From: Roseivirga thermotolerans | GTDB taxonomy: Bacteria > Bacteroidota > Bacteroidia > Cytophagales > Cyclobacteriaceae | Length of the DNA stretch: 64,000 bases | Assembly (NCBI RefSeq): GCF_014653175.1 | Contig: NZ_BNAG01000002.1 | Location: 1 to 64,000, forward strand | Direction: 5' to 3' | Shown: in pieces, positions 8,471 through 39,272 of the stretch | Position numbering within the stretch: the stretch's first letter is position 1 | Layout: every line of letters starts with the position of its first letter | Position numbers and translations under genes: made by a program | The notes under the pieces: generated by a model | Seen by the model: only the letters and a program-made list of their open reading frames with translations | The model's database searches: none | Told to the model about the DNA's origin: nothing

Positions 8471-11400
8471 ATGGTTATAAAGTATTCCAAAACGTACCCG
8501 CTTCTATTTGTGCTTTTCACTGTGCTGTTTGTGGTGAATGAGGCACAAGCACAAGCCTTCAGAGAGAAATTTGGTAAGAATAGAATTCAGTACAAGTATT
8601 TCGACTGGAGTTATTTTGCCTCAGAAAACTTTGAGGTGTATTATTATGAAGGCGGGCAGGGGTTGGCTCGAAAAACCATTGAATATCTCGAAAGTGAGTT
8701 TAACAGGATAACTGAAACCATTGGTTACCCGCCTTATGCCAAAATCAGAATCTTTCTTTACAACTCTGTGGCAGACAAACAGCAGAGCAATGTGGGGGTA
8801 AATGCCGGAGATTTTACGGTTGGTGGAGAAACCGAGTTTGTACAATCTCAGGTAGAGTTGGCTTATTCAGGCGACTACAGTTCTTTTAAGAAGAAGGCAT
8901 TATACAGTGTCACCGAGATGCTGATAGAAGAAATGTTGTACGGTGGCAACATTGCAGAAATGTTCCAAAGCTCTTTCACCAACCCCATTCCGGTTTGGTT
9001 TACAGGCGGTATAGCCAAATATGTGGCCTACGGATGGGATAAAGAATCGGACGATGCGGTAAGAGAATATGTTTCTACCACCTCAGAGGATAAGTTTATT
9101 CGCTTGAGTGCTGAAATGAACAGACTCCTGGGGCAGTCTATTTGGAACTATATTGCTCAGAAATACGGACAGCGCAGTATTTCCAACATTCTAAACCTTG
9201 CCCGAATTATTCGGAACGAAGAAAACAGTATTGAGCGTACTCTTGGAGTACCCTACGAACAGTTTATGAACGAGTGGCGCATTTTTTATAACAACGCCAA
9301 CATTCAGCTTAAAGAGAATAACTATTCTGCTCCCGATCCCGGCACCAAGGTTTCAGGTAAAAATAAAAACGAAGACCGCTACACATCAGTGAAGTTTAGT
9401 CCTGATGGTCGTTTTTTGGCCTATGCAGCGACCAATGAGGGACAGTTTAAAGTAAGGGTACGAAATATGACCAATAATGAGGAGCGGGAGATATTTAAAG
9501 GAGGACTTAAGCTAATCGATCAGGAAGTTTACACACACTATCCTATCCTCAGCTGGGCCGACACGACCACACTGGGTATTGTTTATGCTGAAAATGGCGC
9601 AAATGTTTTGGCAGTAAAGCGATTGGGCGAAAAAGGAGAGCAGAAGCTTAAGATACCTCTTTTGGGTATTATTCAGAGCTTTGATTTTAAAGATGGAGGA
9701 CGACTTGCGGTAATGACCGGCTCAATCAATGATGTTTCTAATGCCTATGTATACAATCTTGTAAGAGGTCAGGTAAGGAAAATAAGTGACGATCGTTTTG
9801 ACGAACGAGATATAAGCTTTTTTGAGGGGTCGAATCAGGTGGTTTTTTCTTCAAACCGATCTACGGATAGTGTTTTTGTATCCGGCCCCGACAGTCTGGA
9901 ACATGTAATGGGTAACCAGTTCAACTTATATACCTATGACATCGACTACCCCGACAGCTCATTTAAACAGCTTACTAATAGCCTGGCTATTAATGAACAA
10001 CCCAAAGCTTTTGGTGGCCACACTGTGGTATTTGTAAGCGACCAACAAGGGATTAAAAATCTTTACTCATACAGTCTGCAAGATTCTACCACAAGGCAGC
10101 TTACTAGTTTTGTTTATAGTATTAAAACCTATGACTATCACCCTCAGAGTGGACAGTTGGCCTTTGTGTCTAATCTGGAAGGAAAAGAAGCTGTGTTTTC
10201 ACAATCTATTGATTTGACTCAGAGCATTTTTACCCCCGTTACTCCCCGAAGGGCTTTGGAGGTAGCAAAGATTATGGCTCAAAGAAGAAGAGAGAGATTG
10301 GGAGAGCAATACAATAAGTTGGATTCTGTGCGAAATGCCGGCCCGTTGGTGCCTCAGAATGTAAGGTCTCCTTTGCAGCAGTTAGATTCCCTCAAAGAAG
10401 GAGCTATTAATACGGAAGAATATGAATTTAAGATAGAGTCTAAAGTCAATACCAAAGACTATCAGTTTGAGAAGCCTTCAGAAGACCCAACGGTGAGTAG
10501 CCGGTCTTTTTTGAGTATATACCAGAACACGCGGTCTACAGATAAAATACAAGGGCCGGCACCTTATGAAAACCGTTTTCAGACGGACAATCTGGTGACA
10601 TCTTTTGTAATTGATCAGTTACGATCATTTAGCCAGCTCATGGAAATCCAAATGAATGATTACTTACAAAACCATCGGTTCAAAGGTAGTTTGCTGGTGC
10701 CGTTGAGCTTCAATCAGGGATATGACATATCTGGTGAGTACGAATATCTCAAAGACCGACTCGACTACAGTGTGAAATACTACCGCAAGAGCATCGTACG
10801 AATCGATCCGCAGCGTTTCTTGAATCAACGGTTCAATCTAAGCACTTTTAGTGTGGGAGCCAGCTATCCGTTCAGCCATAAGTTGCGCGTAGACTTTAAC
10901 CCCTTCTTGGCTCAAACCAACTACATAGACAGAGATATACGTTTACTTATACCAAGTAATAATCCCTCCCAGTTCGTTTCGGAGAGTACAGCAACATATG
11001 GAGGCTTTAATACCTCTTTGGTATTTGACAACAGCGTGGTGGTGGGAACTAACCTTCACCAGGGAACTCGTGCAAAGGTGAGGTTTGAGTCTTTTCTGAA
11101 AATGAATTCTGAAGCTGTAAGCTTCAGTAATGTACAAGTAGACCTAAGACATTACTTTAGAGTGAACAAGGGGATATACCTTGCCGGTCGATTCTTCTAT
11201 GGATCGTATTTTGGCAATGCACCTAAGAAGTATTTGTTGGGTGGAGTAGATAACTGGGCCTTTAACAGTACCGAATCTTCGAATGCCGAAGTTAATCCGT
11301 TGGACTTCCAGACCTTGTTCGATAATAGCGATGTGCTGTTCCATCAGTTTACGAACCTTAGAGGTTACAACTACAACACATTTCAGGGTAAGAATGTAAT

Positions 11401-33647: not shown

Positions 33648-35099
33648 ATGAGTAAAACAGACAGAATTACAGTTGCCTATGGCGATGGTATTGGTCCTGA
33701 GATTATGGATGCTACCATTCGTATTATGGATGCCGCAGAAGTTGGCCTAACTTACGATGTCATAGAAATTGGAGAACAAGTGTATAAAGCAGGCCATAAG
33801 TCGGGCATAAGCCCTGAGTCTTGGGATATACTGCGTAAAAACCCTGTTTTTCTCAAAGCTCCAATCACTACCCCTCAGGGTGGAGGTTACAAAAGTTTGA
33901 ACGTAACCATTAGAAAATCGCTCGGCCTTTTTTCCAACGTGCGTCCGTTTAGAGCTTACCCGCCTTACGTGCCGTCTCATTTCCCCCACATGGACGTGGT
34001 AATAGTGCGCGAAAACGAGGAAGACTTATATGCCGGTATTGAACACCAGCAAACCAGTGAAGTGGTGCAAACCCTGAAGCTGATTTCTGAACCCGGCTCT
34101 GAAAAAATTATCCGATATGCCTTTGAGTATGCAAGAGCCTATAACCGCAAGAAGGTGACTTGTATGACCAAGGATAATATTATGAAGCATTCCGATGGAT
34201 TGTTCCATAAGGTGTTTAATGAAGTGGCTAAGGAGTACCCTGATATTGCTGCCGATCACTGGATTATAGACATTGGGTCGGCTGTTGTTGCAGCTCGTCC
34301 GGAGTCGCTCGATGTGGTGGTAACCCTCAATTTATATGGCGATGTGATTTCGGATATTGCTGCTGAAGTGGCTGGTTCTGTGGGAATGGCCGGTTCGGCC
34401 AACATTGGTATGAACCATGCCATGTTTGAGGCCATTCACGGCTCGGCTCCTGATATTGCCGGACAAAACATAGCCAACCCATCAGGCCTACTGAATGGAG
34501 CTACCATGATGCTTGTGCAGTTAGGCAAGGCCGATAAAGCCGAGCTTATTCAGAATGCATGGCTCAAGACATTGGAAGATGGTATTCATACCGGTGATAT
34601 CTATCGAGCGCAGCGCAGTGTGGAGCGTGTAGGTACCAAAGAATTTGCCGATGCGGTGATAGAGCGACTAGGCCAGAAACCAACTAAGCTAAAGCCTGTA
34701 CACTACGATGAAAATGTTTCTATTAGTATAGATGTAAAGGAAAAACCGGCTAAGAAGAAAGAGCTTGTTGGGGTAGATGTGTTTATCGACTGGAGGGGCG
34801 AAAACAGAGATGCCAATGAAATAGGCGATAAGCTGCTCAACGAAGCTTCTACCGAGCGCCTAAAGCTAAAGCTTATCTCTAACCGTGGGGTGTTGGTATA
34901 CCCTAATGGTATGCCTGAGACTTTCAAAACCGATCATTGGAGGTGCAGGTTTACCAATCCAAATGGAGAGGTTTTACAAAACTCTGATGTAATTGAACTG
35001 CTCCAAAATGTGCAGAAGGTCGGTTTCGACTTTATTAAGACGGAGCACCTTTATCAGTTTGATGGTGAGCGAGGCTACTCGCTAAGCCAGGGAGAATAA
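33648..35099 (+). CDS. icd: NADP-dependent isocitrate dehydrogenase, Thermus-type long form
   Basis: The enzyme oxidises isocitrate to 2-oxoglutarate in the TCA cycle. The catalytic domain (about 1-335) carries the family motifs: VAYGDGIGPEIMDATIRI near 8, the SLGLFSNVRPFRAY region near 92 with substrate Arg residues, VRENEEDLYAGIEH near 118, and the nucleotide-binding segment with EAIHGSAPDIAGQNIANPSG near 263-283 (partial quotations). A C-terminal extension of about 140 residues, after a Lys-rich linker near 365, marks the long Thermus-type form. Length 483. It has its own promoter-like box and a strong terminator, so it is probably a single-gene transcript. Confidence 0.92.
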   Translation: MSKTDRITVAYGDGIGPEIMDATIRIMDAAEVGLTYDVIEIGEQVYKAGHKSGISPESWDILRKNPVFLKAPITTPQGGGYKSLNVTIRKSLGLFSNVRPFRAYPPYVPSHFPHMDVVIVRENEEDLYAGIEHQQTSEVVQTLKLISEPGSEKIIRYAFEYARAYNRKKVTCMTKDNIMKHSDGLFHKVFNEVAKEYPDIAADHWIIDIGSAVVAARPESLDVVVTLNLYGDVISDIAAEVAGSVGMAGSANIGMNHAMFEAIHGSAPDIAGQNIANPSGLLNGATMMLVQLGKADKAELIQNAWLKTLEDGIHTGDIYRAQRSVERVGTKEFADAVIERLGQKPTKLKPVHYDENVSISIDVKEKPAKKKELVGVDVFIDWRGENRDANEIGDKLLNEASTERLKLKLISNRGVLVYPNGMPETFKTDHWRCRFTNPNGEVLQNSDVIELLQNVQKVGFDFIKTEHLYQFDGERGYSLSQGE

Positions 35100-35120: not shown

Positions 35121-35154
35121 AACACGCTGGTCTGCTGGGCTAGCGTGTTTTTTT
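35121..35154 (+). terminator. Rho-independent terminator of icd
   Basis: AACACGCT (35121-35128) pairs perfectly with AGCGTGTT (35142-35149), extended by one G-C and one G-U, with seven T at 35148-35154. The T tract touches the stop codon of the convergent cyclase gene. Confidence 0.9.
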
Positions 35155-36217
35155 ATGATGCAGGCTCTACGGCATAAATAGCCACCGCCTCTTCCTTACC
35201 CTTTAGGGGCATTTCTCCCATAAAATGAAAAACGAATTTCCTACCAAGAATTCGGTCTTTGAGATGTTGAGAAACCAGAAGCGGTTTCTCCAGCTCATTG
35301 CATTTGGCCTGAATACGAGCGGCTGTGTTGAGCGTGTCTCCGTGGTAAGCTATTTCTCTTTTGTATTTGCCCACTTCGGTGGTGGTAACTTTGCCCAGAT
35401 TTACACCGGCTTTAAAAAACGGCACAATGCCATAGGCTTTTTCATAATGCTCTTTGCGCAATTCTATTTGGTGTTGAAAAGCATAAAAAGCTTTAAGGCA
35501 GTTGTTGTTTCGAATGCCGGCAGGGGTTGGCCAGGTGAGTATGGCCTCATCGCCCACGTATTGATAAATTTCGGCCTCATAGGCCAATACCACTCCTAAG
35601 TCGTAAAAGCAGTCCTGGATCAGGTTGCTATAGGTAATGTGGCCAAGTTTTTCAGCAAGCTGGGTAGAAGATTGCAGATCCAGAAACATAAATATACGCT
35701 CTTCTTCATGCGGTTCGTAGAATTCGCCCATCAGTAACTTGGTGAGGTTGCCTTCGCCCAACATTAAATTAACCTGTCGTAAAACCAACATAAACAGATC
35801 GAAAACAATGATGTAAAGATACACCACGCCACTACCGGCATCGGTAGCAAACTCCCACAGACCAATCTCAAATTTTAGAATATGTACAGACATTAAGTAG
35901 GCCACAAATATCATGGCGACTACAAAAGCCAATAGGTATACCCCCTTGATTATAAGGAGTTTTTTAATGGAGGTCTGCCGATAGATTTTTTCTTCCAGCA
36001 GAAACTGAAAGTAGCCTGAGATCATACCAAAGAAGCCTCCCAGTAGTCCGGCAAAGAAAATAGCTACGTCCAGGCTGGGGTTAAAGCGACTTACCTCTAC
36101 AGTGCCCACACTCCTGATAAAAACCAAAAATATAAGGCCTGCCATCCATCCCAGTGTATACTGGCGAATGATGGTCTTCTTTCGGTTGCGGAGTGGCTTG
36201 GAAAATTGCACGTTCAA
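35153..36217 (-). CDS. Membrane-bound class III adenylate/guanylate cyclase
   Basis: A 354-residue protein with about four N-terminal membrane helices (about 22-38, 50-74, 86-112, 127-150) and a C-terminal class III cyclase domain from about 174. Metal-binding Asp180 (FMFLDLQSST) and Asp223 (QYVGDEAILTW) and the transition-state pair Asn297 and Arg301 (GDTLNTAARIQ) are all present, so it should be active. Whether it makes cAMP or cGMP is not clear. The longest start is TTG at 36217; it lies in a TAGCTTTG promoter-like box, so GTG at 36211 or ATG at 36145 are possible. No receptor domain besides the membrane part is seen, so the helices themselves may sense the signal. Confidence 0.85.
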   Translation of the reverse strand: MNVQFSKPLRNRKKTIIRQYTLGWMAGLIFLVFIRSVGTVEVSRFNPSLDVAIFFAGLLGGFFGMISGYFQFLLEEKIYRQTSIKKLLIIKGVYLLAFVVAMIFVAYLMSVHILKFEIGLWEFATDAGSGVVYLYIIVFDLFMLVLRQVNLMLGEGNLTKLLMGEFYEPHEEERIFMFLDLQSSTQLAEKLGHITYSNLIQDCFYDLGVVLAYEAEIYQYVGDEAILTWPTPAGIRNNNCLKAFYAFQHQIELRKEHYEKAYGIVPFFKAGVNLGKVTTTEVGKYKREIAYHGDTLNTAARIQAKCNELEKPLLVSQHLKDRILGRKFVFHFMGEMPLKGKEEAVAIYAVEPAS

Positions 36218-36237: not shown

Positions 36238-36597
36238 TTAGGTAGTTGGAAGAGGAAGATTGTGCACGCGAAGGAATGAAAGCTTATCCCAATAGCCTCT
36301 TTGAAACACTATTTTTCCTTCCGAAACCTGAAAAAAGCCACAACCTCGTAGTCCCAGAGGGTCTTTCCATTCTAAAATAGCCCAGTCTCCATCTTCGAAA
36401 ATATGCTCAACTATACAAGTCATTTTGGCCGTAGCAAACTCGGTTTCAAAACTGTTGATGATGGCTTTTTTGCCCTTTAAGGGACTATTGGCTACCTGAT
36501 GGTTTATAGCATCTTCGGCATATAGTTGGCCTAATGCCTGGGCGTTGCCTTCGTTAAAAAGCCTAACCCATTCTTCAACCAGTGTTTTTGGAGTCAT
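36238..36597 (-). CDS. NTF2-like (SnoaL-type) protein
   Basis: A 119-residue protein with the nuclear transport factor 2-like cone fold pattern: TLVEEWVRLFNEGNAQALGQLYAEDAINHQ at the start (in part), and IFEDGDWAILEWKDPLGLRGCGFFQV toward the end. No signal peptide. Members include isomerases, dehydratases and binding proteins, and the specific activity cannot be told. It starts 20 bases upstream of the cyclase and may be read with it. Confidence 0.8.
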   Translation of the reverse strand: MTPKTLVEEWVRLFNEGNAQALGQLYAEDAINHQVANSPLKGKKAIINSFETEFATAKMTCIVEHIFEDGDWAILEWKDPLGLRGCGFFQVSEGKIVFQRGYWDKLSFLRVHNLPLPTT

Positions 36598-36717: not shown

Positions 36718-37680
36718 TCAGTTGAGGTGAATGATAGACAAATACAAGGGCATGCCTAAGGTAATGTTGAGAGGAAAGGTAATGGCCAGTGCCATAGGTA
36801 TATATATGCCGGGGTTAGCTTTAGGGGCAGCCAGCTTCATGGCGGCCGGCACAGCAATATAAGAAGCACTGGCTGCCAGTATGGAAAACAGCAGTTGGTT
36901 GCCAACGTTATCTGTAATGTATTGGCTCACAAAGGCAACTACCGACCCGTTAATTAAAGGCACCAGCACAGCAAAACACAAAGTGAACCAGCCGTTTTTC
37001 AAGAATGTGGAGAGTTTCCTGCCACTGGTTATTCCCATATCTAGTAAGAAAACCGCCAAAAAGCCTTTGAAAATATCGGTAGTAAAGGGTTCTATGCCTT
37101 GAGCCTGTTTGTCGGAGGCAAGAAAGCCAATGACCAAACTACCCAGTATGAGTACCACACTGCCATTGGTTACCGAATGCTTTAGGATATGGCTGAAAGA
37201 GACTTTGTGCTCACTTTCTTCTCTGAAAAGAGCCATAAGCAGTACTCCTATAACAATTGAGGGGGCCTCCATAAGTGCCATTACAGCCACCATGTGGCCA
37301 TCGAAAGCTATTTGCTGCATTTCCAAAAAGGAAACGGCCGTTACAAAAGTTACTGCGCTTACCGATCCGTAGGCTGCGGCTATGGCCCCCGCATTTTGTA
37401 CCCCAAGTCTCTTTTTTAGTAGGAAAAAGGAGTATATAGGTACAATAAGAGCCATAACTACCCCAAAAACCAACGACCAGAGGATTTCCGCATTTATGGT
37501 TTCGTGAGACAACTCCTGACCTCCTTTAAATCCTATGGAGAAGAGAAGGTATATGGAGATGAATTTGGACGAATTGGCTGGTATTTCCAGATCGCTTTTT
37601 AGCTGAACGGCCAACAGACCCAGAAAGAAGAAGAGCAAGGCCGGGTTGGTCAGGTTATCGAACAATAATTGTAATTCCAT
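36718..37680 (-). CDS. Sodium-dependent bicarbonate transporter, SbtA-like
   Basis: A 320-residue inner-membrane protein with about ten helices. SbtA (DUF897) hallmarks are clear: ALLFFFLGLLAVQLKSDLEIP at the start (in part), LLFSIGFKGGQEL near 45, and the tell-tale GAIAAAYGSVSAVTFVTA near 97-114. In cyanobacteria SbtA takes up bicarbonate with sodium. Here it is the last gene of a three-gene operon led by two small unknown proteins, with a LysR regulator in the opposite direction, a set-up that recalls CmpR/CcmR control of carbon uptake. No PII-like SbtB is encoded next to it. Confidence 0.88.
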   Translation of the reverse strand: MELQLLFDNLTNPALLFFFLGLLAVQLKSDLEIPANSSKFISIYLLFSIGFKGGQELSHETINAEILWSLVFGVVMALIVPIYSFFLLKKRLGVQNAGAIAAAYGSVSAVTFVTAVSFLEMQQIAFDGHMVAVMALMEAPSIVIGVLLMALFREESEHKVSFSHILKHSVTNGSVVLILGSLVIGFLASDKQAQGIEPFTTDIFKGFLAVFLLDMGITSGRKLSTFLKNGWFTLCFAVLVPLINGSVVAFVSQYITDNVGNQLLFSILAASASYIAVPAAMKLAAPKANPGIYIPMALAITFPLNITLGMPLYLSIIHLN

Positions 37681-37713
37681 GAAGGCTTGGCAAATCCGGG
37701 CCGTAGGCCCAGT

Positions 37714-38004
37714 CTATCGGGTTAGTTTAATGTTGAATGAGACCGTTGCTTCAATATGGCAACCCAGCTGTTCTGCTAACATAAACCGTTCTTGAAGTTC
37801 TTGCTTCTGTTGCTTTAGATGGTCTATATAAGCTTCTGTATCGGCATTGGATTTTAGCTGATTTGGTTGCTCAAAGGCCCTAAGGTTTTGAAGGTTTATT
37901 TGCTTTATCAATCCGTCTACCATGGCAGCCATTTGTTCAAAGGCTTGTGAAGGAGACAGGGTTTGGTTCATTAGCTGTATTTGATTTTCTTTTTCGTGAA
38001 TCAT
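37714..38004 (-). CDS. Small coiled-coil protein of unknown function
   Basis: A 96-residue soluble protein, predicted helical with a Gln/Glu/Lys-rich coiled coil at about 55-80 (LKQQKQELQERFMLAEQLG). No family recognised. It overlaps the upstream gene as ATGA and ends 33 bases before the transporter start, with a small GGGCC-GTA-GGCCC hairpin (37698-37710) between. Position suggests it works with the transporter, perhaps in the regulatory role SbtB has in cyanobacteria; that is inference only. Confidence 0.65.
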   Translation of the reverse strand: MIHEKENQIQLMNQTLSPSQAFEQMAAMVDGLIKQINLQNLRAFEQPNQLKSNADTEAYIDHLKQQKQELQERFMLAEQLGCHIEATVSFNIKLTR

Positions 38005-38261
38005 GACTTTTGATTGGTTTTACTTGATTGTATCAGGTGAATAATAGAAGCGAAGAAAACGATGGCTCCTGAGGCTATGGCGGGGGCCTTTAGGGCGCTG
38101 GCATAGGTGAAGACCAGCATAATCCAGCAAGCTAAAGCCAACAAAACTGTCCCTATGAAAACCAGGCTTTGACTTACTATGAAAGCTTCTGATTTGACAG
38201 GAGAAGCATTTTCTGACTTGGCTCGCTTTTCAGTCCATTCGGTTGTCGATGTTGTGCGCAT
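38001..38261 (-). CDS. Small protein with two membrane helices
   Basis: An 86-residue protein with a polar, Lys/Glu-rich start (about 1-28) and two hydrophobic segments (about 31-53 and 57-76). No family recognised. The longest frame starts at a TTG (38285); the ATG at 38261 is used. It is the first gene of the operon that ends in the SbtA-like transporter, and its stop overlaps the start of the next gene by four bases. Confidence 0.6.
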   Translation of the reverse strand: MRTTSTTEWTEKRAKSENASPVKSEAFIVSQSLVFIGTVLLALACWIMLVFTYASALKAPAIASGAIVFFASIIHLIQSSKTNQKS

Positions 38262-38302
38262 AGTTCTTTTTTTAATGCGGCACAAAGATGAAGGCTGTGA
38301 TT

Positions 38303-38320
38303 GATAAATTTTTATTTATC
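38303..38320. promoter_or_regulatory. Perfect dyad between the LysR gene and the transporter operon
   Basis: GATAAAT-TTTT-ATTTATC is a perfect 7-bp-arm inverted repeat in the 87-base divergent intergenic region. It overlaps a TATCTTTC -7-like box for the LysR gene. LysR-type regulators usually bind a T-N11-A dyad near divergent promoters, so this is the best operator candidate. Confidence 0.45.
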
Positions 38321-38348
38321 TTTCATATGTTAATCATAAACATAATTT

Positions 38349-39272
38349 ATGGATTATACCCTGCATCAGCTCAAGGTTTTCCTTAAGGTAGTTCATACAC
38401 AAAGCGTTACTAAGGCTTCAGAAGAGCTTTTTTTAACTCAACCAGCAGTTTCTATTCAGCTCAGAAAATTTCAGGATCAGTTTTCTGTACCGCTATTTGA
38501 GGTAGTCGGTAGGCAATTGTACATCACCGATTTTGGAAAGGAAATAGCTGTGGCTGCAGAAAGGATTCTCAACGAGGTAGAAGCCATTAATTATAGAACC
38601 TTGGCCTACAGCCAGCAATTGGCAGGTCGGCTCAAGGTTTCTGTAGTTTCTACAGGGAAGTACGTAATGCCCTATTTTCTGTCTGAATTCATGCGAAAAC
38701 ACAAGGGTGTCGATCTGATTATGGACGTAACCAATAAAAGTAGGGTGATCTCTAACCTGGAGGAAAATGAAGTTGATTTTTCGTTGGTGTCGGTTTTGCC
38801 TGCCCACCTGAGTATCGATAGGCTAGAGTTGCTTCAAAACAAGCTATATCTGGTGGGCAGTCCGCAACTCAGGGCTTTGGCCGATTCTGATAAAAAGGAT
38901 TTTCTGCAACAATACCCTCTTATATATAGAGAACAAGGCTCGGCTACACGCAATGCCATGGAGTCGTTCATTCGTTCAAAATCCATTTCTACTTATAAGA
39001 AGCTTGAGCTTACTTCTAATGAAGCCGTTAAGCAGGCAGTAATTGCAGGACTTGGTTATTCTATTATGCCCCTTATAGGGCTCAGAAATGAGCTCAGAAA
39101 TGGGCAATTGGAAATAATTCCATTGAAGGGCCTGCCGATTGTTACCCGTTGGAATCTCATATGGTTAAAAGGCAAAAACCTCTCTCCGGTAGCACAGGGA
39201 TATTTAGATTTTCTAAAGCAGAAGAGAAAGAAACTGGTGGAGGAACATTTTCACTGGTACGAGCAATATTAA
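38349..39272 (+). CDS. LysR-family transcriptional regulator (CbbR/CmpR-like)
   Basis: A 307-residue activator/repressor. The N-terminal winged helix-turn-helix is canonical: LHQLKVFLKVVHTQSVTKASEELFLTQPAVSIQLRKF in part over residues 6-42. The rest is the LysR substrate-binding domain (about 90-300), whose LKVSVVSTGKYVMPYFLSEF start resembles regulators of CO2 fixation and bicarbonate uptake. It is divergent from the SbtA-like operon and is its likely regulator. It converges with the SemiSWEET gene, sharing four bases at the stops. Confidence 0.9.
   Translation: MDYTLHQLKVFLKVVHTQSVTKASEELFLTQPAVSIQLRKFQDQFSVPLFEVVGRQLYITDFGKEIAVAAERILNEVEAINYRTLAYSQQLAGRLKVSVVSTGKYVMPYFLSEFMRKHKGVDLIMDVTNKSRVISNLEENEVDFSLVSVLPAHLSIDRLELLQNKLYLVGSPQLRALADSDKKDFLQQYPLIYREQGSATRNAMESFIRSKSISTYKKLELTSNEAVKQAVIAGLGYSIMPLIGLRNELRNGQLEIIPLKGLPIVTRWNLIWLKGKNLSPVAQGYLDFLKQKRKKLVEEHFHWYEQY

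Follow-up and report, generated by a model that had tools for sequence, protein, structure and literature searches.

An SbtA-like transporter operon with two small proteins and an NdhR/CmpR-like regulator in Roseivirga thermotolerans

How is a bicarbonate transporter of the SbtA kind controlled in a bacterium whose operon contains no SbtB? The question is raised by a locus of Roseivirga thermotolerans (Bacteroidota) in contig NZ_BNAG01000002.1, of which positions 1 to 64,000 were analyzed as a whole and are termed the window. An sbtA-like Na+/HCO3- symporter gene (36718-37680, minus strand, 320 amino acids (aa), PF05982 with E 1.3e-114) is preceded by the open reading frame (ORF) of C96, a coiled-coil hairpin protein of 96 aa whose family has no name (37714-38004, minus strand). 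Upstream of both lies the gene of a small membrane protein with two hydrophobic segments, termed the 2-TM (two-transmembrane-segment) protein (38001-38261, minus strand), and an NdhR/CmpR-like LysR regulator gene is divergent (38349-39272, plus strand, 307 aa, PF03466 and PF00126). The 2-TM and C96 genes overlap by 4 nt (ATGA), and 33 nt separate C96 from sbtA. This gene order, overlap, gap, and divergent LysR gene were described in an initial annotation and are all reproduced from the ORF coordinates. The annotation further proposed that the pair of small proteins takes over the job of SbtB. In the literature compared, the control of SbtA is cyanobacterial and involves SbtB and, since 2026, SbtC.

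The answer favored here, which is held to be rather probable, is that a LysR regulator controls an operon for inorganic-carbon (Ci) uptake at this locus, in a Bacteroidota bacterium without Rubisco, and that the operon couples bicarbonate uptake to 2-oxoglutarate (2-OG) supply, with C96 as a regulon protein and the 2-TM protein as an SbtA accessory. What is directly established is the identity of the genes, their recurrent linkage, the mutual exclusion of C96 and SbtB at the loci inspected, and the conservation of residues. From there we infer HCO3- transport, the LysR ligand, the regulation, and the roles of both small proteins. The divergent LysR of the NdhR/CmpR kind probably senses 2-OG or a similar metabolite; it would act on palindromes between the divergent genes and drive 2-TM, C96, and sbtA. 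LysR genes related to it are found in other genomes ahead of isocitrate dehydrogenase (IDH) or ahead of C96 with DabB/DabA, and SulP, Sua5, and DUF6671 genes join some loci. SbtA would bring in HCO3- with Na+ to feed carboxylations, both anaplerotic and biosynthetic. The 2-TM protein would serve as an SbtA-specific membrane accessory in the manner of cyanobacterial SbtC, and C96 would be a cytosolic coiled-coil regulon protein acting with LysR or with several Ci systems rather than an SbtB-like plug.

SbtA with and without SbtB

The absence of SbtB from this system, as initially annotated, is borne out: no P-II family match (E<=0.001) is present anywhere in the 4.2-Mb host genome, and the same search was positive in 13 of 14 control genomes. 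The linkage of SbtA was followed in 185 distinct proteins that were pooled from all sets, partly fetched via C96, and limited to SbtA ORFs above 250 aa. C96 lies within 5 kb of 100 of them, a PII-like gene lies within 1 kb of 18, none has both, and 67 have neither; some locus flanks span only 1.5 kb, so this last class may conceal a more distant gene. As to presence, the small genes do recur next to SbtA in relatives, in agreement with the initial annotation. All 18 PII-like genes are positioned directly downstream of SbtA, and the SbtB calls were checked singly. A survey started from 296 genomes instead found 79 that bear SbtA, of which 77 were scored and two drop out. Twenty-four of the 77 carry C96 beside SbtA, 12 carry SbtB, 41 show neither in the stretch seen, and none shows both. 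In L245 (L-numbers denote the loci or genomes of relatives compared here), C96 fell below the threshold in the larger label set and was restored by hand for this count, and L310, one of the 24, is absent from the list of 52 C96 genomes used below. Because 41 of 77 SbtA genomes show neither protein beside SbtA, a replacement for SbtB is not obligatory.

The two kinds of SbtA also differ in descent and in one residue. In a tree of 134 of the 185 proteins (every third newly added row, FastTree only), one branch with a support of 99 places all 56 C96-linked, all 20 LysR-only, and 33 unlinked SbtAs on one side and all 18 SbtB-linked and seven unlinked SbtAs on the other, so that the contrast requires a single change. 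Position 168 is a histidine in 160 of the 185 SbtAs (100/100 C96-linked, 23/23 LysR-linked, 37/44 unlinked). It is a glutamate in the 18 SbtB-linked proteins and in the same seven unlinked proteins from the SbtB side of the tree. Synechocystis SbtA likewise has glutamate here (alignment to 7cye).

Mutual exclusion in all 185 cases, the single separating branch, the histidine of every C96-linked SbtA opposed to the glutamate of the SbtB-linked and Synechocystis proteins, and the tight gene coupling would all suit a model in which C96 and the 2-TM protein take over from SbtB by attaching to SbtA itself, as an inhibitor or a plug. This is considered unlikely. C96 is also found with DabB/DabA, SulP, and IDH in the absence of SbtA, unlike a dedicated plug, and its predicted strand-helix-helix-strand hairpin does not resemble the PII fold of SbtB (PMC8352866). 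The many SbtA genomes with neither protein argue in the same direction, and exclusivity across one branch may mirror a single ancestral event. As C96 sites hold IDH (34/51) more often than SbtA (21/51) or DabA (7/51), plugging SbtA directly is not the first role to suggest itself for C96. The initial proposal that a different pair does the job of SbtB is partly supported, by the lack of a P-II match, the mutual exclusion of C96 and SbtB across a supported branch, the CmpR/NdhR kind of the LysR, and the absence of Rubisco, but C96 is not dedicated to SbtA. No paper joining SbtA, SbtB, PII-like, and Bacteroidota was found in the open-access literature, which does not imply absence from print.

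The C96 family and its neighborhoods

C96 meets no curated Pfam or NCBIfam cut-off, and the scanned family members are likewise nameless. A profile built from seven seed members matches 27 of 99 relatives at E<=0.01 with seed genomes counted. The weakest of these matches, at E 1e-3 to 1e-2 and partly within long frames, could have arisen by chance. A 62-row profile finds the protein in 52 of 296 Bacteroidia genomes at E<=1e-4, and in 17 of 296 phylum-wide genomes, two of them outside the class. The members share the pattern L-I-x-G-x-F-x-P-x-E-A ... K-I-N-F-H ... R-I-x-E-L, from which the window copy deviates at many positions. An AlphaFold2 model (mean pLDDT, the predicted local distance difference test score, 89.7) predicts a strand (residues 6-16), two helices (18-45 and 54-80), and a second strand (84-93). 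Foldseek returned no match in the PDB at E<=0.001 (best 0.11), and VIA-align returned mostly generic helical hairpins (best Z 8.5), from which no conclusion was drawn. Sub-cut-off Pfam matches of C96 and of the 2-TM proteins (IFT20, PufQ, emp24, and others) were taken as chance. Two C96 genes per locus are present in L094, L097, L100, L102-L104, L127, L134, L143, and L164. In L094, L097, L100, and L102-L104, one of the two is longer, extended by a basic N-terminal stretch, and is located beyond the LysR gene.

The genes surrounding C96 were called as longest open frames and labeled by BLAST or small hidden Markov models (HMMs). The BLAST labels were confirmed by Pfam on representatives of DabA (E 3.8e-165), a DabB-like proton channel, DUF6671, Sua5, SulP, and IDH. 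Within ~7 kb of C96, taking one site per genome in 51 genomes besides the window, LysR is found at 44 sites, IDH at 35, SbtA at 22, DabA at seven, and DabB at six. Within 5 kb of 51 class-wide sites, the counts are LysR 41, IDH 34, DUF6671 22, SbtA 21, Sua5 8, DabA 7, DabB 6, and SulP 5. IDH is the commonest labeled gene just upstream of C96 in other genomes, and at 31 of 52 sites (window counted) it ends <=800 nt upstream on the same strand. IDH of this type is NADP-dependent. Three gene orders recur: LysR|IDH-C96-(DUF6671)-(Sua5)-SbtA, LysR|C96-SbtA, and LysR|C96-DabB-DabA. DUF6671 (PF20376) often lies between C96 and SbtA or Sua5, for example at L204:5939-6772 and L226:7211-8023; no mention of it was found in open-access papers, which does not imply absence from print.

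Viewed from the transporter, 68 of 79 SbtA ORFs above 250 aa have C96 within 5 kb and 64 have LysR; they come from 80 loci of the closest SbtA matches, a biased sample. Among the 296 genomes, SbtA occurs in 35 of 52 that carry C96 and in 44 of 244 others (odds ratio 9.4, p 8e-12), and SbtA or DabA occurs in 44 of 52 versus 76 of 244 (p 8e-13); these Fisher tests ignore kinship among the genomes.

The prominence of IDH suggests a second alternative, in which C96 is primarily a partner of IDH or LysR in the balance of 2-OG and CO2 and its place before SbtA reflects regulon membership only. We regard it as possible, though on balance somewhat unlikely. It would account for the close upstream IDH genes, for the LysR gene near 44 of 51 sites, and for the 16 of 51 sites that hold IDH without a labeled Ci transporter or carbonic anhydrase within 5 kb. 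It accounts less well for loci in which C96 stands alone between LysR and SbtA or DabB where no IDH adjoins, and for the presence of SbtA or DabA in 44 of 52 C96 genomes. In the open-access literature, no paper was found that joins isocitrate dehydrogenase, bicarbonate transporter, LysR, and Bacteroidetes, or SbtA and isocitrate dehydrogenase in a Bacteroidota operon; absence from print is not implied in either case.

The 2-TM protein

The 2-TM protein meets no curated Pfam or NCBIfam cut-off. Its start is probably the ATG at 38261 (86 aa) and not the TTG at 38285 to which the frame is open (94 aa), because two close relatives align from there; its relatives in L031 and L032 are 33 and 40% identical. 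A small ORF with two hydrophobic segments, assigned with a Kyte-Doolittle window, lies just upstream of 40 of 159 C96 genes (25%) versus 59 of 2213 other genes (2.7%). The 2-TM kind is an SbtA-specific piece of the neighborhood: it is present at 41 of 106 SbtA loci, at none of 13 DAB loci, at two of 23 IDH loci, and at none of five others. Counted by transporter, it precedes C96 or SbtA in 48 of 100 C96-linked, two of 23 LysR-only, one of 44 unlinked, and none of 18 SbtB-linked cases, with at least one of the 48 calls (L198) looking spurious in the alignment.

The adjacency of C96 and SbtA is not due to chance, because it recurs in other genera and because the 2-TM ORF is enriched upstream of C96. 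An ordinary conserved gene order without functional linkage between the small genes and SbtA is rated as highly improbable. It would draw on the relatedness of many linked genomes, which the Fisher tests ignore, but it sits poorly with the 2.7% background against 25% for C96. The arrangements also vary (C96 before or after SbtA, IDH-C96-SbtA, C96-DabB-DabA), and since they differ between genomes, the association appears to be a repeated one.

Mean net charges of +3.0 and +1.7 in the tails and -0.1 in the loop, that is basic tails and a neutral loop, suggest that both ends of the 2-TM protein are cytoplasmic. Many 2-TM proteins share L-S-x-x-N-x-x-L-F-x-x-E-L. The window copy is tied to the 2-TM proteins of other SbtA loci only through a profile-profile alignment of its own family (probability 80.6, P 1.3e-5, 42 columns, three sequences). 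In a test with an HMM of other 2-TM proteins, the best-scoring "controls" (L097, L067, L135, L128, L272, L282, L092) came from SbtA or IDH loci.

Among described proteins, SbtC is the nearest analogue of the 2-TM protein. According to the consulted portion of a commentary on Walke et al. 2026 (PMC13360264), its small reading frame precedes SbtA in Synechocystis and a transmembrane helix is predicted in it; SbtC coexists with SbtB and is reported to lower SbtA-dependent uptake and leakage. A review states, in the portion consulted, that SbtC is perhaps required for efficient transport (PMC13249358). By its position and its two hydrophobic segments, the 2-TM protein is similarly a small transmembrane protein encoded upstream of SbtA. 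The idea that the pair replaces SbtB is weakened at this point: the 2-TM kind is SbtA-specific, but it resembles, if anything, a protein that coexists with SbtB.

The divergent LysR regulator

Only four distinct PDB sequences match the window LysR at E<=1e-15 (5y2v, 5y2w, CmpR 5z49, and 8sbf), with 5y2v (E 7.1e-51) and CmpR 5z49 (E 2.6e-30) as the closest chains. The entry 5y2v is titled "Rubisco operon transcriptional regulator" and is taken by us to be NdhR, which is supported by the agreement of its residue numbers with a recent review. The initial label "CbbR/CmpR-like" fits in that the nearest structures are of the CmpR/NdhR kind. Against the NCBIfam CbbR family NF045990, the protein scores 179.6 bits, below the curated cut-off of 450.

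According to the portion of the 2026 review consulted (PMC13249358), NdhR contacts 2-OG through Ser224, Asn225, Tyr105, and a lysine printed as "Lys10", which we read as Lys104 from the alignment. The contacts to 2-phosphoglycolate (2-PG) are Thr101, Thr102, His130, Asn164, Arg195, Thr201, and Arg267. The window LysR keeps all four 2-OG positions in the alignment (K104, Y105, S223, N224) and four of the seven 2-PG positions, with T101 changed to serine, H130 to lysine, and R267 to threonine. The same pattern is found in the 139 distinct LysRs that are divergent to C96, SbtA, IDH, or DabB: K104, Y105, S224, and N225 are kept in 137, 138, 130, and 137 of them, position 130 is a lysine in 134, and position 267 is threonine or serine in 137. 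One of the 139, at 24% identity, is probably no orthologue. Among seven other LysRs of low identity, Lys104 and Asn225 occur in none, Tyr105 in two, and Ser224 in six; 12 non-divergent LysRs were available, and five at 47-62% identity were left out of this comparison.

The intergenic region contains two candidate sites. The palindrome GATAAAT-N4-ATTTATC (38303-38320, unstranded), a candidate LysR box that falls inside the initially annotated range, occurs once in the 4.2-Mb genome, at this locus, and its core TAAAT-N4-ATTTA (38305-38318) is present in 24 of the 139 LysR upstream regions versus 1.3 in block shuffles. The second candidate, TATG-N5-CATA (38326-38338, unstranded), is present in 20 versus 0.6. 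The commonest palindrome, ATATA-N8-TATAT, is found in 39 upstream regions versus 1.1. The motifs were picked after scanning many, the shuffles were made by 20-nt block, and the regions come from related loci.

The transporter and its substrate

The window SbtA scores 383.1 bits against the PF05982 cut-off of 27 over positions 1-307 of 308, and no second PF05982 match occurs in the genome. Synechocystis SbtA (7cye, E 1.5e-25) is the only distinct PDB sequence that matches it at E<=0.1. The proposed HCO3- contacts of the Synechocystis protein are S114, Y140, S324, and S327, and its Na+ site is bound through main-chain oxygens (PMC8352866). Mapped by hand from the 7cye alignment, S114 and S324 are kept in the window protein, while Y140 is replaced by methionine and S327 by alanine. 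In the Na+ site, G111, A320, and S322 are kept, F110 is tyrosine, and A112 is serine. The 18 SbtB-linked SbtAs of Bacteroidota likewise lack Y140 (Met in 10, Leu in 8) and S327 (Ala in 18).

As two of the four proposed contacts are not kept, bicarbonate is not proven as the substrate. The replaced residues leave room for a transporter of another small carboxylate, for example formate, and an operon for metabolite balance unrelated to Ci. The SbtA-like gene SO_3758 of Shewanella, in which mutations were selected for formate tolerance according to the portion of the study consulted (PMC12093963), points the same way. We consider this very unlikely. The conserved S114 and S324, and the conserved Na+-site residues with their main-chain contacts, speak against it, C96 with a divergent LysR precedes DabB/DabA elsewhere, and beta-carbonic-anhydrase-like genes and Sua5 lie near some SbtA genes. 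These neighbors, namely DAB, the carbonic-anhydrase-like genes, and Sua5, which uses bicarbonate, favor bicarbonate as the substrate. A heterotrophic use is discussed in the consulted portions of two papers: sbtA of proteorhodopsin-bearing Flavobacteriia is treated within anaplerotic Ci fixation (PMC5932025), and a note on a Bacteroidetes genome argues along the same lines about a bicarbonate transporter that is Na-dependent (PMC4148732).

Several further genes adjoin SbtA in relatives. A 164-169 aa protein encoded directly upstream of SbtA or adjoining C96 (L036:9617-10111, L043:9580-10089) matches beta-carbonic anhydrase weakly (Pro_CA, E 2.6e-5 and 1.3e-4, just below the cut-off). It may be a pseudo-enzyme, because the CxDSR motif is not seen by eye in either. 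Proteins of this kind are also labeled in L229, L234, and L240. A universal stress protein of 312-318 aa is encoded 3' of SbtA in L039-L042 and L044 (Pfam checked on L039), followed in L040 and L041 by a beta-carbonic-anhydrase-like gene (Pfam checked on L041). The universal stress protein was dropped as part of the unit, being present in a subset of relatives only. In L047, a transposase-like ORF (9782-10549), presumably insertion sequence-like, lies between the LysR gene and SbtA and, judged by eye, seems to have inserted into the promoter region shared by the divergent genes.

The locus in its genome and the weight of the evidence

The host genome has no match to the Rubisco large subunit, to phosphoenolpyruvate carboxylase, or to DabA, and has one beta-carbonic anhydrase away from the locus. 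Phosphoenolpyruvate carboxylase was dropped as the bicarbonate consumer for want of a match. An IDH with a bacterial C-terminal domain is encoded at 33648-35099 (plus strand; PF00180, E 3.1e-95; PF18324, E 9.4e-45) and is arguably part of the same story. Behind sbtA lie a SnoaL-like protein gene (36238-36597, minus strand, E 2.8e-14) and a gene for a membrane protein with an adenylate/guanylate cyclase domain (35153-36217, minus strand, E 3.9e-8). A gene similar to those after the window sbtA is also seen by eye 3' of SbtA in L003/L031. SbtB of other systems is a cyclic AMP sensor (PMC8352866).

Against the Ci uptake operon proposed here weigh the replaced Y140 and S327, which are also missing from the SbtB-linked proteins, the 41 SbtA genomes with neither C96 nor SbtB, the 16 IDH sites without a labeled Ci transporter or carbonic anhydrase, and the missing phosphoenolpyruvate carboxylase. 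To these are added the eight of 52 C96 genomes that lack both SbtA and DabA, and the count of only 24 linked cases among 35 genomes with both C96 and SbtA. The window IDH is convergent to sbtA, 1.6 kb beyond it, and not upstream of C96. The HMM of other 2-TM proteins recovered L033 but not L031, L032, or the window copy, which is too diverged. The two accounts of SbtC, in the portions consulted, conflict between a requirement for efficient transport (PMC13249358) and an inhibition of uptake (PMC13360264). On the side of the regulator, conservation of the site falls short of proving that 2-OG is bound, because CmpR binds ribulose 1,5-bisphosphate through the equivalents of K104, S224, and N225 (PMC13249358, portion consulted) and unrelated LysRs share Ser224 (6/7) and Tyr105 (2/7). 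The most enriched palindrome, ATATA-N8-TATAT, is absent from the window.

A bolder extension, which appears rather unlikely, would make C96 a transporter-independent Ci control protein of Bacteroidota that is common to unrelated pumps (SbtA, DAB, perhaps SulP) and to IDH under one 2-OG-sensing NdhR-like LysR. Heterotrophs would then run a carbon-concentrating response without Rubisco, SbtB would have been lost once at the base of the SbtA clade, and the 2-TM protein would be a new SbtA-specific gatekeeper. If the favored reading is true, an SbtB-free clade of Bacteroidota SbtAs with its own recurrent small proteins and an NdhR-like regulator would reveal by what means heterotrophs control their Ci pumps and would provide SbtB-free SbtAs for engineering. 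The IDH link makes it testable whether heterotroph Ci uptake is governed by the demand for 2-OG rather than by carbon fixation.

Comparison with known systems

The locus resembles the cyanobacterial sbtA-sbtB operon (Synechocystis slr1512) in its SbtA homologue with conserved S114 and S324 and in its likely control by a LysR of the NdhR/CmpR kind. It differs in having no SbtB in the operon, in a genome without P-II match or Rubisco, in histidine instead of glutamate at position 168, and in two undescribed small proteins. Like SbtC of Synechocystis, the 2-TM protein is small, is encoded ahead of SbtA, and is predicted to span the membrane. Unlike SbtC, it has two hydrophobic segments and an SbtB-free setting, and the two are likened by position and description, not by sequence. 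NdhR/CcmR and CmpR are the closest solved structures to the window LysR, in which the 2-OG contact residues are kept. In contrast to NdhR, the 2-PG contacts H130 and R267 are changed, IDH is among the linked genes, and the host has no Rubisco. DAB (DabA-DabB) loci of other genomes share the combination of C96 and a divergent LysR before DabB/DabA, whereas the host genome has no DabA match. In proteorhodopsin-bearing Flavobacteriia, sbtA is likewise carried by heterotrophic Bacteroidota, and the portion of that account consulted does not mention the small proteins (PMC5932025).

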